A model generated the notes under the pieces. It saw only the letters and a list, made by a program, of their open reading frames with translations. It was not told where the DNA came from and searched no databases. From positions 3,077,628 through 3,141,627 of the forward strand of contig NZ_CP116619.1 of assembly GCF_030409055.1 (NCBI RefSeq): DNA of 64,000 nucleotides. Reading direction: 5' to 3'. Origin of the DNA: Trichocoleus desertorum NBK24. Its GTDB lineage: Bacteria > Cyanobacteriota > Cyanobacteriia > FACHB-46. Positions within the stretch are counted from its first letter, which is position 1; every line of letters starts with the position of its first letter. Shown here piece by piece: positions 43,410 through 51,172 of the stretch. The position numbers and the translations under genes are program-made.

Positions 43410-44879
43410 ATGTCATCACTACAAAAAATAGCCAGACGTCGCTCAGCCGTTCGTCGCAACCTCTGGTTTGAACGAGTGATGGCAATCTTAGCGTCAGCAA
43501 ATTTGTTGCTGGTGCTATTTGATGTGAGCTATGTATCGCTGCGAGATTTCTACTTATTGCGGTTACCACGCCTGATTCCTTCAGCCGGAAACTTAACCCA
43601 GCTATACGATCCGGTGAAAGGGATTGAACCCCACCGAGATACCCAAAACTACTTGCAAGCTGTAGCTGATTTAGAAGCGCAAGTCGAGAAGACGGGCATC
43701 AGTTCACCTGAAGTGGAGCCTTATCTAGCGCAGTTGCGGAGTCTTAGCACCGAGATGATCGATGGCGATCCCTTCGAGATCGCTGACAAAAGCGGCACTC
43801 TGGAGAGAATCAAAAATCGGATGCGGGAGCATATCTATGGGCAACGCCGACAAGTTTCTTCTCGCGAGTCTTTCAATCGATTTTGGAGCCAAGACCATCT
43901 ACTACAGGCGGGATGGCGCAGCGAAATTGATTTCTTCAATCAAGGAATTCGCCCCTTAATTGCAACCAACTATTTTCGGCCCTTAGGAGAAACTGGGGGG
44001 TTTGTTAGTTATTTTTGGCGCATTGATTTGCCTTTCGCGATGATTTTCTGCGTGGAATTCTTCGCTCGGACTTTTTATATTAGTCGTCGCCATAAAGGTG
44101 TTAGTTGGCTCGATGCCATGTTATGGCGCTGGTATGACGTGTTTCTGTGGTTGCCTTTTGGGTTTTGGTTCCCTGCTTGGCGATTGCTGCGGATTATTCC
44201 AGTGACAATCCGGCTGCATCAAGCCAAACTGGTTGACCTAGACTTTGTTATCGCTCAAATCAACCGTGGTTTTGTGGCCAACTTCGCTGAAGACTTAACC
44301 GAGGTTGTCGTGATCCGCGTGATTAATCAAGTGCAAGGGTCGATTCAGCGCGGTGAACTGACACGGTGGCTATTTCGTTCACCCAGTACCCGTGGTTACA
44401 TTGACCTCAACAACGTCAATGAGGTAGAAGCGATCGCCACCCTCCTCGTCAAACTGGTTGTGTATGATGTACTGCCCAAAATCCAACCTGACCTGGAGGC
44501 CATTCTGCGGCACAGTATCGAAAGTGGATTACGGCAACTCCCCATCTATCAAGGTTTACAACAAGTGCCGGGGGTGCGGGATCTGCCAACTCAACTCGCA
44601 GACCAAGTCGTTGCCAATGTGACTCAGACTGCCTATCAAGCTTTGGTTGGTGCTTTAGAAGATCCTGTAGGAGCCCAACTCTCTAGTCAACTCGTACAAC
44701 ATTTTGCCGAAGCCTTAGGGTCGGAAATGCAAAGCCAGCAGAATCTGCACAAAATCCAGAAGCTACTCTTTGACCTCTTAGAAGAAGTCAAGGTGAACTA
44801 TATTCAGCAGCTTTCAGCGGAGGACATAGAGGGTGTGATAGAGCAAACTCATCAGCTCCACCAAATCGTGAAAAAATAA
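43410..44879 (+). CDS. conserved polytopic membrane protein, unknown function
   Basis: A 489-residue protein, not recognised by name. Membrane segments are likely at about 22-45 (MAILASANLLLVLFDVSYVS), 205-225 (LPFAMIFCVEFFARTFYIS) and 240-262 (WYDVFLWLPFGFWFPAWRLL). Between the first two lies an acidic soluble helix region; after the third a long helical cytosolic or periplasmic tail of about 220 residues with coiled-coil character (QNLHKIQKLLFDLLEEVKV). It follows the hydrolase-like gene at 76 bases and may share its operon. Confidence 0.7.
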   Translation: MSSLQKIARRRSAVRRNLWFERVMAILASANLLLVLFDVSYVSLRDFYLLRLPRLIPSAGNLTQLYDPVKGIEPHRDTQNYLQAVADLEAQVEKTGISSPEVEPYLAQLRSLSTEMIDGDPFEIADKSGTLERIKNRMREHIYGQRRQVSSRESFNRFWSQDHLLQAGWRSEIDFFNQGIRPLIATNYFRPLGETGGFVSYFWRIDLPFAMIFCVEFFARTFYISRRHKGVSWLDAMLWRWYDVFLWLPFGFWFPAWRLLRIIPVTIRLHQAKLVDLDFVIAQINRGFVANFAEDLTEVVVIRVINQVQGSIQRGELTRWLFRSPSTRGYIDLNNVNEVEAIATLLVKLVVYDVLPKIQPDLEAILRHSIESGLRQLPIYQGLQQVPGVRDLPTQLADQVVANVTQTAYQALVGALEDPVGAQLSSQLVQHFAEALGSEMQSQQNLHKIQKLLFDLLEEVKVNYIQQLSAEDIEGVIEQTHQLHQIVKK

Positions 44880-45002
44880 GGTTAAAAGCGTTAGCATTTG
44901 GGTGATTGAGCCGACCCACCTGCCTAAGAAGTACCTTTTTGAAGCTACCTTCTGGAGATGGATCTACACCCCTCTGCCTATTCCAAATGGGGTGCGCTAA
45001 AC

Positions 45003-45008
45003 TATAAT
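45003..45008 (+). promoter_or_regulatory. -10 box ahead of a possible small RNA
   Basis: A perfect TATAAT hexamer upstream of a structured stretch ending in an intrinsic terminator at 45072-45095. The -35 region (around TTCCAA, 44981) is weak. It suggests a transcript starting near 45015. Confidence 0.5.
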
Positions 45009-45014
45009 CATGTG

Positions 45015-45095
45015 GGCTTGGGGCTTTCCAAGTCCGTACGGTGATTTCGTGGAAGTAGCTATTTCATGGGGAGTGGGTCGTTACCCACTTTTTTT
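45015..45095 (+). ncRNA. putative structured RNA or attenuator upstream of rimP
   Basis: About 80 bases run from a TATAAT box to an intrinsic terminator. Visible pairings are hairpin CTTGG/CCAAG (45018-45032), self-complementary CCGTACGG, a near-palindrome GAAGTAGCTATTTC (45053-45066), and the terminator AGTGGGT/ACCCACT with a CGTT loop (45072-45089) and seven T. Since rimP starts 175 bases later, this is either an independent small RNA or a leader that stops transcription before rimP-nusA. I cannot assign it to a known RNA family. Confidence 0.5.
45072..45095 (+). terminator. intrinsic terminator upstream of rimP
   Basis: Perfect 7-base stem AGTGGGT/ACCCACT with tetraloop CGTT followed by seven T. 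It closes the transcript that begins after the TATAAT box and lies within the rimP leader region. Confidence 0.85.
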
Positions 45096-45270
45096 ATTGC
45101 TAGGGCCGCTGTTTTATGGTCAGGGCCTATGACGAGTCTCTCCAAATTTGAGATTTCATCAAAGCAGACAACCTTGTAGCTCTAAGACATCACTCATAGT
45201 CAAACTCTACAAAATTTGGATGTAGGGCCAGCCGGAATAATCATTGGACGTCGGCAGAGGAGGTAAGACA

Positions 45271-45732
45271 ATGGCTCACCCTTTGATCCCACAAATTATC
45301 GAGATTGCAACACCCGTTGGCGAAACTTTGGGATTAGACGTGGTTGCGGCTGTATTTCACACAAACCAAAGCCCTCCTGTTTTGCGCGTAGACATCCGCA
45401 ATCTCCAAGAAGACACCGGGCTGGAAGACTGCGAACGGATGAGTCGAGCCTTAGAAGCGGCTCTAGATGAAGCGAATGTGATTCCTGATGCCTATGTTTT
45501 GGAAGTGTCTAGCCCTGGGATTTCTCGGTCACTCACCAGCGATCGCGAATTCATTTCATTTAAAGGGTTTGCGGTGATTGTTAGCACTTCAGAACCTTAC
45601 GAAGGGAAAAAAGAGTGGCAAGGACTACTGGTGCGGCGCGATGACACGGCTGTCTACATCAACCAAAAAGGGCGAGCGATCGCCATTCCTCAAGCTTTGA
45701 TTACGAGAGTGCAACTCGATGAGCGTCGCTAG
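45271..45732 (+). CDS. rimP: ribosome maturation factor RimP
   Basis: Assembly factor for the 30S subunit, 153 residues from the ATG at 45271, which has an excellent Shine-Dalgarno (AGAGGAGGTAAG). The family blocks are present: [37 protein letters not shown] and [20 protein letters not shown], then the SH3-like C-terminal domain. It heads the rimP-nusA-ylxR-infB group, the order usual in bacteria. Confidence 0.95.
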
Positions 45733-45841: not shown

Positions 45842-47176
45842 ATGTCAATGGTTCCTCTGCCTGGACTCAAAGTCATGATCGACAGTATTAGCCAGGAGCG
45901 CAACTTGCCCAAGCATGCTGTACAGGCTGCCTTGCGCGAAGCTCTCTTAAAAGGCTATGAGCGCTATCGACGGACTCAGCGCCTCGACCACGTCAATTTT
46001 GATGAGGAATACTTCGACAACTTTGAAGTAGAACTTGACACCGAAGAAGAAGGCTTCCGAGTGCTTTCTACCAAAGCGATTGTGGAGGAAGTTAGCAATT
46101 CAGACCACCAGATTGCCCTAGAAGAAGTCCAAGAAGTGGCCGCAGAAGCCCAACTGGGCGACACCGTGATTTTGGATGTCACCCCGGACCAAGGAGAATT
46201 TGGTCGGATGGCTGCCATTCAAACCAAGCAAGTATTGGCCCAAAAACTGCGAGACCAACAGCGCAAGCTGGTACAAGAAGAGTTCCAAGATTTAGAGAGC
46301 ACCGTACTGCAAGCCAGGGTACTACGCTTCGAGCGCCAATCTGTCATCATGTCAGTCAGCAGCAGCTTTGGCCAACCAGAGGTAGAAGCCGAACTGCCCA
46401 AACGAGAGCAACTACCAAACGACAACTACCGAGCCAACGCCACATTCAAGGTTTATCTGAAGCGAGTTTCTGAAGGTTCCCATCGGGGGCCACAATTGCT
46501 GGTTTCCAGAGCCGATGCGGGTTTGGTAGTGTATCTGTTTGCCAATGAAGTCCCAGAAATCGAAGATGAAGTGGTACGCATTGTGGCAGTGGCTAGAGAA
46601 GCTAATCCACCTTCTCGCTATGTCGGTCCTCGTACCAAAATTGCGGTAGACACCTTGGAGCGCGATGTTGATCCGGTAGGAGCTTGCATTGGAGCTAGAG
46701 GTTCCCGCATTCAGGTGGTCGTGAACGAGCTACGTGGTGAAAAGATTGATGTCATCCGTTGGTCACCTGATCCCGCCACTTACATTGCCAATGCTTTGAG
46801 TCCTGCACGAGTGGATGAGGTGCGCCTTGTTGATCCCGAAGAACGCCAAGCCCACATTCTCGTAGCAGAAGATCAACTCAGTCTCGCGATTGGTAAGGAA
46901 GGTCAAAACGTGCGTTTGGCCGCTCGTCTGACAGGCTGGAAAATTGACATTAAAGACATTGCTAAGTATGACTACGAAGCCGAAAATCGCAAGATTGAAG
47001 CTCTAGAAGAAGCTCGGCGACAGTATAAGGCGACCGAGTATGAGGAAGACTATGAAGATGAAGAGTATCTAGACGAGGACTACGAGGAAGATCCCGTAGA
47101 AGCCACTGCTGACGAGGAAGAGAATTTGGAGGCTCCTGCCGCAGATGCAATTGATTCTGATTCTGTCAGCGAGTAA
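45842..47176 (+). CDS. nusA: transcription termination/antitermination factor NusA
   Basis: RNA-polymerase associated factor for pausing, termination and antitermination. The 444 residues contain the N-terminal polymerase-binding domain (MIDSISQERNLPKHAVQAAL), an S1 domain, and two KH domains with VDPVGACIGARGSRIQVVV and AIGKEGQNVRLAARLTGW. The tail after about residue 395 is strongly acidic (EEDYEDEEYLDEDYEED). The acidic repeat domains of the longer E. coli protein are absent, as usual for cyanobacteria. GGAGGTG precedes the start by about eight bases. Confidence 0.96.
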   Translation: MSMVPLPGLKVMIDSISQERNLPKHAVQAALREALLKGYERYRRTQRLDHVNFDEEYFDNFEVELDTEEEGFRVLSTKAIVEEVSNSDHQIALEEVQEVAAEAQLGDTVILDVTPDQGEFGRMAAIQTKQVLAQKLRDQQRKLVQEEFQDLESTVLQARVLRFERQSVIMSVSSSFGQPEVEAELPKREQLPNDNYRANATFKVYLKRVSEGSHRGPQLLVSRADAGLVVYLFANEVPEIEDEVVRIVAVAREANPPSRYVGPRTKIAVDTLERDVDPVGACIGARGSRIQVVVNELRGEKIDVIRWSPDPATYIANALSPARVDEVRLVDPEERQAHILVAEDQLSLAIGKEGQNVRLAARLTGWKIDIKDIAKYDYEAENRKIEALEEARRQYKATEYEEDYEDEEYLDEDYEEDPVEATADEEENLEAPAADAIDSDSVSE

Positions 47177-47233: not shown

Positions 47234-47488
47234 ATGAAGCCTAACTATCGTCGATGTGCTAGTTGTCGTAAAGTTGCTCCTAAAGAAGATTTCTGGCGCA
47301 TTGTGCGGGTGCATCCATCACAAACAGTACAATTGGATCAGGGCATGGGGCGTTCTGCTTACCTATGTCCTGAGGTTCAGTGCTTGCAAGCGGCTCAGAA
47401 AAAAAATCGACTGGGGCGATCGCTGAAAGCCTCTATACCAGCTGAGTTATACCAAACCTTAGAGCAGCGTTTGGCAAAAGCTGAATAA
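47234..47488 (+). CDS. ylxR: YlxR family RNA-binding protein
   Basis: An 84-residue basic protein with the YlxR signature NYRRCASCRKVAPKEDFWRI and GRSAYLCPEVQCLQAAQKKN. In Bacillus the homologue (RnpM) binds and modulates RNase P; the cyanobacterial role is untested. It lies between nusA and infB, its normal place. Confidence 0.93.
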   Translation: MKPNYRRCASCRKVAPKEDFWRIVRVHPSQTVQLDQGMGRSAYLCPEVQCLQAAQKKNRLGRSLKASIPAELYQTLEQRLAKAE

Positions 47489-48025
47489 GTCAATGGACTA
47501 AAACTAAATCGCGCTCTAGAATGGGGAAGTGGCAAATCCCCACTCTCCGACTAGGATTTACATGTAACGTTGAGCTTGTAGGAGCGTAATGACGGTATAT
47601 TCTGGAATTGATAATCAAAAGGCAAGGGTAAAAAATCCTTGTCAGCAGCTAGGTGATCACCAAACGCAGGTTGTAATCTACCTGCTGAGTTTGGTTGGGG
47701 AAAGTTAACACCAGGCGAGGATTATTCAAAACCAGTACTCACAGGTTGACGAGGTTGCCCAGAAAAGCGGCACTAAAGTGCCAACCTCAACGGCCTGCAA
47801 ACCTACAAGATTCATGCAAGATTTTAAACTAGCAAGCTGTTTACAGGCTATAAATAGCCGTTTGTCTTCGGAAAAACACTCCCGCAGCAGAGTGCAGCTT
47901 TTCTCGTTTAAAGTTAAAAAGGGAAACGACGTTTAATATTTCAATATACGTCAGCAGATCAACCACTTGTAGTTAGTTTGCAAAACAGTAGGCCACTATG
48001 TAACACATTCAAGAGGGAAGAGTGG
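47489..48025. other. long infB leader region
   Basis: More than 500 bases separate ylxR from infB. No gene is visible. A notable fold is GAGGTTG (47751-47757) against CAACCTC (47782-47788) enclosing the hairpin GGCACT/AGTGCC (47769-47782, two-base loop). A further short inverted repeat TGGGGA/TCCCCA occurs at 47522-47542. infB may have its own promoter or leader control here. Confidence 0.45.
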
Positions 48026-51000
48026 ATGAATAACGGCAAAGTTAGAATTTACGAGCTATCAAAGGAACTAAATTTGGATAACAGGGATATACTAGCCGTT
48101 TGCGAACAGCTAAATATTTCAGTTAAGAGCCATAGCAGCACGATCACAGAAGATGAGGCTGAGCGCATCCGTGCTGCCGCTGAAAAATATACAGCCAGCC
48201 ACTCCTCTCCTCCAAAGCCAGCTTCAGCCAGCCACAGTGCGGGTGCCCAAGCTAGAGAGGCTGCCCAAGCGGCGGGTCGGAAGCCGCAGATTTTAGAAAT
48301 TCGCAGACCCAAAGCGATTAGTCCCAATCAACAGCTCGCTGACAATGGGAATGAAGCAATTCCTCAAGCGACAAAACCTACTCCTCAACCTCCTACCAAT
48401 CAACCCTTGCAAACTCCTGTTAAGCCAGCGGCACCCAGTCGCCCGACTCGTTCCGCACCTGAAAGTGCTGCTCCTGTTTCTATTCCTGCTTCCGAGCCTG
48501 TTGTTGAACTGACCCCATCGGCTCCATCTGTGGGTGAGACTGATAAACCTCAAGTTAAACGTTCCCCTAGTCCCACGGAAGAAACGGCTCCTAGAGCAAG
48601 GGCGAGTCATCAACCTAGCATTCAGCCACAATTGGTGGCACCACCCTCTAGACCAGCAGCTCCGACGACAAATCGGGGTCCAAGCAATCCTGCCAATCGG
48701 ATTGTCTTAAAACGCGATCGCCCTGAGCGTCCTGAGGGTGAGACTCCGTCGTCGGGTCGCCCTACCGAATCTAGAGTTGGGCAAAGTCCGGAAAGACGTG
48801 CCGATGCTCCAGAACGGCGGGAGCGTCCGGCTGTAGGAGGCGGAGATAATGATGAGCGCCGTCCTCAGCCTGTGACTGAGCTGAGGCGTCCCGCTAGCCC
48901 TGCTAGACCTGTTCGTCCGACTCAGCCCCGTGAAGGTCAGCCAGGTGGATCTGGCGATCGCTCTGGAGCCGGTCTACAAGTAGAACGCTCACAAGCACCT
49001 GCTGGCGGAGGCCCCATTGATGAGCTTCGCCGTCCCACCTTACCTCGCAACTTGAAGAAAGGTAAGAGTTGGGAAGAGGAAGAAGAGGAAAACGCAGAAA
49101 ATGCGAAGGCTAAGGCTGGCCCTAAAGCTAAGCGTCGGTCACAGCCTGTGCTGGATGACGAGGACATTGAAATTGAAGACCTCGACATTGATGGTGAAGA
49201 GGAACTGGATGAGGACGAGGATGCTCCTGTTCAAGTGAGCCTCTCTCTGGCACGTCCCGCTAAGCCTAAGTCTCGTCCAGGCCAAGCTAGACCCATTGCT
49301 GCTGCTCCAACCGCACCGAAGAGCAGAAAGTCAAGCCATCGCGATCGCCGCGATCGCCGCGAGCAAGAAGCCAAAGTCGAGCGTCCCACCAAAATTACTC
49401 TGACAACCGGACTAACGGTACAAGAGTTAGCCTCACTTTTGGCAGTACCAGAAACAGAAATCATCAGAGCCCTGTTCTTCAAAGGCATTGCTGCCAACAT
49501 CAACCAAACCCTTGATGTTCCGACTGCGAGCATGATCGCTCAAGAAATGGAAATCGAAGTCGAGATGGCAGAGAAGGAGGCAGAAGCTCGGAAAGTTACC
49601 GAGATGCTGGATGCATCAGATTTGGAACTGTTGCAGCGGCGTCCTCCAGTAGTCACGATCATGGGTCACGTAGACCACGGGAAAACTACCTTGCTCGACT
49701 CCATCCGCAAAACCAAAGTGGCTCAGGGAGAAGCGGGCGGCATTACCCAACACATTGGTGCCTACCATGTTGATGTTACCCATGAAGGTAAGATGCAACA
49801 GGTAGTGTTCCTGGATACACCGGGTCACGAAGCCTTTACGGCGATGCGGGCTCGTGGTGCTAGAGTCACTGACATTGCCATTCTGGTCGTTGCTGCGGAT
49901 GACGGCGTTCGTCCCCAAACCATTGAAGCTATCAGCCACGCTAAAGCGGCAGAAGTCCCAATTATTGTCGCCATCAACAAGATTGACAAAGAGGGCGCTC
50001 AGCTCGATCGCGTCAAGAATGAGTTGATGAACTACGACCTGGTACCTGAAGAATATGGTGGTGACACCATCATGGTTCCGGTCAGCGCCATTAAAGGGGA
50101 AAACCTAGATACCTTGCTAGAAATGATTCTGCTGGTGTCAGAGGTAGAAGATCTCTATGCGAACCCAGATCGCTCGGCTAAAGGAACAGTCATCGAAGCC
50201 CACCTCGATAAAGCTCGCGGTCCGGTTGCTTCCATGCTGATTCAGAATGGTACCCTCCGGGTGGGAGACACCATTGTTGCAGGTTCAGCCCTAGGTAAAG
50301 TCCGGGCAATGGTAGACGATCGTGGGCAGCGAGTCGAGGCAGCGGGGCCATCTTTTGCGGTAGAAATCCTAGGTCTAGGAGACGTTCCTGCTGCGGGTGA
50401 TGACTTTGAAGTCTTCCAAGATGAGAAAGAAGCAAGAGCGGTGGCTTCGGCCAAGACCGATCAGCAACGTCAATCTCGTCTACAGCAGCAAGCCCTCGGT
50501 GCTCGTCGGATTACGCTCAACTCCTTGTCCGCTAAAGCTCAAGAAGGCGAGCTGAAGGAACTCAACCTGATTCTGAAGGCGGATGTGCAAGGGTCAGTAG
50601 AAGCAATTCTTGGCTCGCTGCAACAACTGCCTCAAAATGAAGTACAGGTTCGGGTGCTGTTATCGGCACCAGGAGAGGTTACAGAGACTGACGTTGACTT
50701 AGCCTCAGCTAGTGCTGCCGTGATTATTGGGTTCAATACCACTCTGGCGAGCGGTGCGAGACAAGCTGCTGACGCAGCAGGTGTTGATATTCGTGAGTAC
50801 AACATCATCTACAAGCTCTTGGATGATATCCAAGGGGCGATGGAAGGTCTCCTAGAACCAGAAATGGTGGAAGAACCACTGGGTCAGGTGGAAGTTCGGG
50901 CTGTCTTCCCCGTTGGCAGAGGTGCAGTTGCAGGTTGCTATGTCCTCTCCGGCAAGGCAATTCGTAACTGTAATGCGCGAGTTCACCGAGGCAACAGCGT

Positions 51001-51172
51001 CATTCATGAGGGTATCCTAGACTCGCTCAAGCGGATGAAGGAAGATGCCAAGGAAGTCAATGCTGGCTACGAATGCGGTGTTGGCATGAGTACTTTTCAT
51101 AACTGGGTCGAAGGGGACATCATTGAAACCTTCCGGATGGCGACGAAGCGCCGGACCTTGTCGGCTAACTAA
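48026..51172 (+). CDS. infB: translation initiation factor IF-2
   Basis: GTPase that brings fMet-tRNA to the ribosome. From ATG at 48026 ([20 protein letters not shown]) the protein has 1048 residues; an earlier in-frame TTG-type start would add 16 unlikely residues. Residues 1-60 are the IF2N domain; about 70-430 is a very long Pro/Ala/Arg-rich disordered region, typical of cyanobacterial IF-2, with an acidic block near 370-410. A second IF2N domain follows ([20 protein letters not shown]). The GTPase shows GHVDHGKT at 547-554, [15 protein letters not shown] and NKID. Terminal domains II-IV are complete. A strong terminator follows. Confidence 0.97.

Follow-up and report, generated by a model that had tools for sequence, protein, structure and literature searches.

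The rimP-nusA region of Trichocoleus desertorum NBK24 raises the question of how an operon is transcribed when an intrinsic terminator stands in front of its first gene. The window, meaning the whole 64-kb stretch of DNA that was analysed, covers positions 3,077,628-3,141,627 of NZ_CP116619.1, and all positions below are counted from its first letter. Behind the terminator, rimP, nusA, ylxR, and infB follow one another on the + strand (Table 1). A preliminary description of this DNA had offered two readings of the interval before rimP, namely a stand-alone small RNA or a leader whose terminator is bypassed. On the other side of the interval from rimP lies an unannotated 489-aa membrane-protein-like frame (43410-44879), for which no Pfam match was found; frames resembling it were present upstream of rimP in 47 of the 80 named loci described below.

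Table 1. Features of the leader interval and of the genes behind it, in window positions.
Feature	Position	Strand	Basis
Conserved promoter word GCTAAACT, with the putative -10 hexamer TAAACT at 44998-45003	44996..45003	+	GCTAMAMT conservation
TATAAT, probably not the main -10 box	45003..45008	+	In only 4/93 homologous stretches
5' hairpin P1, GGGCUUGG..CCAAGUCC	45014..45035	+	z -3.0
Paired words AUUUCGUGGAAG...AUUUCAUGG between P1 and terminator	45044..45070	+	Word kept in many orders
rimP-leader intrinsic terminator, GAGUGGGU CGUU ACCCACUU + U7	45071..45095	+	Sole strict terminator of the window; stem near-invariant in relatives
175-nt spacer up to rimP, with the ribosome-binding site GAGGAGG (45257-45263) at its end	45096..45270	+	
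rimP (ribosome maturation factor)	45271..45732	+	Pfam RimP_N and RimP C-terminal SH3 domain
nusA (candidate feedback regulator)	45842..47176	+	Pfam NusA_N and NusA-like KH
ylxR	47234..47488	+	Pfam YlxR
infB (IF-2)	47978..51172	+	Open frame that reads as IF-2, named by inspection

The terminator was evaluated with a strict criterion, which asked for 7 or more consecutive base pairs in the stem and 7 of 8 T behind it. On both strands of the window only one site was retained, at an expectation of 0.05 per shuffled 64-kb strand. Its stem pairs 45071-45078 with 45083-45090, the U7 run occupies 45089-45095, and the hairpin has a predicted stability of about -12 kcal/mol (z -3.6). A looser consensus scan was uninformative on its own: over 5 kb it returned 8 terminator-like sites, where 4.9 would be expected. 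The leader from 45010 to 45096 folded at -31 kcal/mol compared to -21.6 kcal/mol in shuffles (z -3.2), and none of 200 shuffles was equally stable. The preliminary description had spoken of about 80 structured bases, a clean intrinsic terminator, and a rimP start 175 bases later; these statements hold, with a structured part of about 86 nt and the ATG at 45271. In the middle word a weak hairpin is possible (45046-45054/45062-45070), with a z of -0.1 in the window. Local hairpins of this word in relatives (CUUC-nUG-GAAG and CGUGGAA/UUUCAUG) were discarded, having 70-75% of cells paired and a covariation no higher than that of shuffles. A short upstream reading frame (45010-45132, or from an ATG at 45066) was likewise dismissed on reading the sequences, as a varying loop length meant that its start codon and frame were not preserved in relatives.

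To evaluate the conservation of the element, an initial blastn survey of 59 relatives was made, in which the core was recurrently found directly upstream of rimP. An unbiased set of 80 named cyanobacterial loci was then picked by the RimP protein, a sampling that leans to filamentous groups; one of these loci (L096) had no upstream sequence. Together with 18 added loci, which were found via the element itself and hence are biased toward carrying it, the terminator was present in 93 of 97 rimP upstream regions. The absence of conserved stems upstream of rimP had been named beforehand as an observation that would speak against the element, and the opposite was seen. The gene order was also nearly constant, with nusA after rimP in 79 of 80 loci. 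In the unbiased loci the strict pattern was counted 76 times upstream of rimP, 74 of these no further away than 500 nt and the other two at -525 and -560. It was found nowhere else on either strand of these loci (989,866 bases). With strict filters, a covariance model run on 291 genomes from this class returned 96 hits, spread over 95 genomes. Of the 89 hits that could be placed relative to rimP, 86 were on its strand and no more than 240 nt upstream of it. Among deep-branching genomes, about 20 of 30 carried the element when judged by eye, down to forms like GGGGGUGUCGGCCCC-UAUUUUU.

Two side observations concern the placement of the element. In locus L142 (G122:C113:8700-11300), an exception to this placement, the leader lies 1.6 kb from rimP with a 361-aa transposase-like frame (TnpB-like, by inspection) in between, which is a natural separation of the leader from its gene. 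Outside the window, the genome of NBK24 has two further GTGGG...CCCACTTTTT terminators (L146 and L148), whose neighbours were named by inspection as a gas-vesicle-like cluster and an SUI1-like frame. Both copies sit 3' of reading frames, and the stem thus also occurs outside leaders.

The conservation of the terminator stem is of sequence and not of covariation. In 92 parsed cases the 5' arm was always GTGGG and the 3' arm was CCCAC (76) or CCCGC (16), the gap from GGG to CCC was 5-6 nt in 81, and the U-run, with a range of 6-8, was exactly U7 in 77. GGG was followed by T or C in 85 of 92 relatives, and CCC was preceded by G or A in 85 of 92; the window has GGGU..ACCC. In the covariance check proposed earlier, the stem was conserved and no compensatory double changes were found in it, nearly all variation being G-U exchange. 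Since a terminator by itself requires stability alone, the fixed letters suggest that the stem is recognised, and the same was inferred from the fixed rimP-leader stem letters by Naville and Gautheret (PMC2965389).

The 5' end of the leader was assigned from the promoter. The word GCTAMAMT was found in 48 of 93 relatives compared to 1.2% of shuffles, mostly at a near-constant 71-77 nt 5' of GTGGG, and in the window TAAACT lies about 74 nt before GTGGG. The three members of the genus all have the same promoter word, GCTAAACT. The TATAAT box that the preliminary description had taken for the promoter does exist and shares one base with the conserved GCTAAACT box, but three of the four relatives that have it belong to this genus, and class-wide it is TAAACT that is conserved. 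Because GCTAMAMT rather than TATAAT is kept at a near-fixed distance before GTGGG, transcription is predicted to start near 45010, so that P1 would stand right at the 5' terminus of the leader. In relatives having the promoter box, the P1 region was variable in sequence with a mean z of -2.9, and in one congener (L003) the P1 stem was preserved via a double change from C-G to U-A.

The distance between the terminator and rimP bears directly on the function of the element. Only 10-25 nt separate the end of the U-run from the start codon of rimP in 64 of 93 loci. A spacer of at most 25 nt is too short for a promoter, so the polymerase that transcribes rimP in these species would have come from the conserved promoter and passed the terminator. 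We therefore consider it likely that the leader is a transcription attenuator of rimP-nusA that works by readthrough, and of the two earlier readings the bypassed leader is the one that fits a terminator conserved only upstream of rimP. The other one, a trans-acting small RNA with an ordinary 3'-end terminator and a rimP with its own promoter in the spacer, would account for the promoter, the roughly 86 structured nt, and the strong terminator, and this genus and some others do have spacers of 161-245 nt. It is very unlikely, as the short-spacer species leave no room for a second promoter, the element stays at rimP in nearly all placeable genomic hits, and the 5' half of the leader is variable in sequence across relatives, unlike the seed of a trans-acting RNA. 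In this genus a second promoter may lie within the long spacer and circumvent the terminator; no sigma-70-like site with 9 of 12 matches was found on the + strand of 45096-45270. A separate small RNA is not needed under attenuation, and a short RNA may still accumulate from the terminated leader. In the actuatons of Synechocystis (PMC5386190) a small RNA and the downstream mRNA arise from one start. This precedent lends some support to the small RNA reading, and it also resembles the arrangement proposed here from the sequence, with a single promoter for the terminated leader and the readthrough mRNA. The main text of that paper does not mention rimP or nusA.

The short spacers are also an argument for another explanation, in which the hairpin chiefly controls rimP translation by folding close to the start codon, with termination as a by-product. 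In agreement with it, a purine-rich ribosome site was found within the spacer in only 11 of the 64 short-spacer species. The exact U7 of most relatives would be superfluous for translation, and in this genus the hairpin lies 175 nt from an ATG that has its own GAGGAGG; we regard this explanation as highly improbable. Where the hairpin adjoins the start codon, control of translation could nevertheless be part of the reason for the stem conservation.

Attenuation by readthrough requires that something sets the ratio of termination to readthrough, and an RNA-only switch was considered, in which the terminator would be blocked when an upstream word pairs to its 5' arm. In Nostocales and their neighbours, ACUUCUUG can form 8 contiguous base pairs with CAGGAAGU (about -10 kcal/mol), and 91% of cells were paired in a selected set of 31 sequences. 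The pairing was absent in the window (z +0.9) and the class median z was -0.6; moreover, partners exchanged between species paired equally well (Wilcoxon p 0.34), and the covariation score was matched by 80 of 500 shuffles. Such a switch is thus unlikely as the general explanation, and the class-wide pairing tests gave no support for an antiterminator common to the whole class. The alternative pairing UUCCA/UGGAA of the preliminary description was lost in both congeners, which have UUCCC/CAGAA (L002) and ACCCA/UGAAA (L003). In the Nostocales-like loci (L031-L058) and their neighbours, a highly conserved ACTTCTTGGAAGATATCCCTATCGCAGGAAGTGGG was observed about 35 nt upstream of the rimP terminator, and its first 8 nt together with the CAGGAAGU terminator arm form a candidate antiterminator limited to this clade.

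We propose that the interval serves the rimP-nusA-ylxR-infB operon as its 5' leader and acts as follows. RNA polymerase would start near 45010 off the TAAACT box and synthesize a leader of about 86 nt comprising P1, a short conserved word, and the terminator. A part of the polymerases would end at 45095 and the remainder would continue into rimP, nusA, and infB, so that the choice between stop and readthrough would set the output of the operon. Intrinsic termination appears to be the route because Rho was absent in all 59 relatives tested, by a search that was positive in 9 of 14 known control genomes. As the stem sequence is fixed and no antiterminator was seen in this genome, the choice would most likely be made by a protein that recognises either the hairpin or a polymerase pausing there. 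The leading candidate is NusA, because its gene is in the operon, NusA of B. subtilis is autoregulated, and NusA stimulates intrinsic terminators with the Synechococcus elongatus RNA polymerase in vitro (PMC13289151). High NusA would then lead to more termination and lower its own supply. We give NusA roughly an even chance of being the sensor, and RimP, NusG, or effects of translation or growth rate on the polymerase could set the ratio instead.

Comparison with known systems showed that the element is the cyanobacterial form of an already described control element. The rimP-leader of Naville and Gautheret (2010) is a GGGc(...)gCCC stem with a U stretch, 4-130 nt from the gene, ahead of rimP-nusA-infB, and has no general antiterminator (PMC2965389). 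The window element shares its position upstream of rimP in a rimP-nusA-infB operon, the stem with U7 directly after it, and, as shown by the pattern and covariance-model counts, its specificity to rimP. It differs in the extended GUGGG/CCCAC(GC) stem with a mostly exact U7 and in an added promoter word at a near-fixed distance with a 5' hairpin; the usual cyanobacterial spacing falls within the published range, while the 175 nt of the window lie outside it. When E. coli rimP was read directly, GGGCTTTAGGCCCTTTTTTTAT was found about 17 nt before the start, as in most cyanobacteria. The main text of PMC2965389 makes no mention of cyanobacteria, and a literature search for a description of a cyanobacterial rimP leader found none. 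The preliminary description could not match the element to a named cyanobacterial RNA. Rfam yielded no match within the interval with the E limit raised to 5, and only two tRNAs in the whole window; the published rimP-leader does fit. The Rfam family RF01770 is similar in lying upstream of rimP and containing a terminator; at the gathering cut-off of the family, its model matched only E. coli among 14 control genomes and nothing in the NBK24 genome.

The B. subtilis NusA leader would be similar in mechanism. As summarised in a review (PMC12288461), NusA autoregulates there by stimulating termination within the leader of its own gene (Mondal et al., 2016), so that an intrinsic leader terminator governs transcription into nusA. 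The dependence on NusA has been shown for B. subtilis according to that summary, whereas for cyanobacteria it is proposed by analogy; furthermore, B. subtilis has Rho, in contrast to the 59 cyanobacteria tested.

The rimP terminator was missing in picocyanobacteria, the small genomes of family f2. In these (L138-L140, L149-L155, L157, L161-L165, and L167) the last approximately 80 nt before rimP form a conserved structured RNA, which begins immediately after a TACATT/TAGATT-like box and comprises an outer stem such as GUCCGACG/CGUCGGAC, an inner CUCC..GGAG hairpin, and a GGUCA box. Several pairs were preserved via double changes. In several of them the outer stem's 3' strand has an alternative partner downstream, for example GUCGGGC-UU-GCCCGAC in L149. 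No Rfam match was found in the upstream regions of L138-L141. The smallest, AT-rich genomes of 1.7 Mb (L141 and L166) had neither the terminator nor the structured element upstream of rimP. A broader and rather doubtful idea is that leader control of rimP-nusA is near-universal in cyanobacteria with a sensor rebuilt by lineage. Most would rely on a terminator read by NusA, Nostocales would have gained an RNA antiterminator in addition, and picocyanobacteria would have replaced the terminator by an unrelated structured RNA (outer CCGACG/CGUCGG, inner CUCC/GGAG), possibly a new ligand- or protein-binding RNA.

According to a 2026 study, canonical intrinsic terminators account for only a minority of the transcript ends of Synechococcus (PMC13289151). 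A terminator conserved nearly to the letter before the gene of a main termination factor offers a test of whether the cell gauges its own termination capacity. The cyanobacterial rimP-leader family could be added to Rfam, and the element bears on the missing ribosome-binding sites at the rimP start codons of many cyanobacteria. The terminator probably throttles the rimP-nusA operon in most cyanobacteria.
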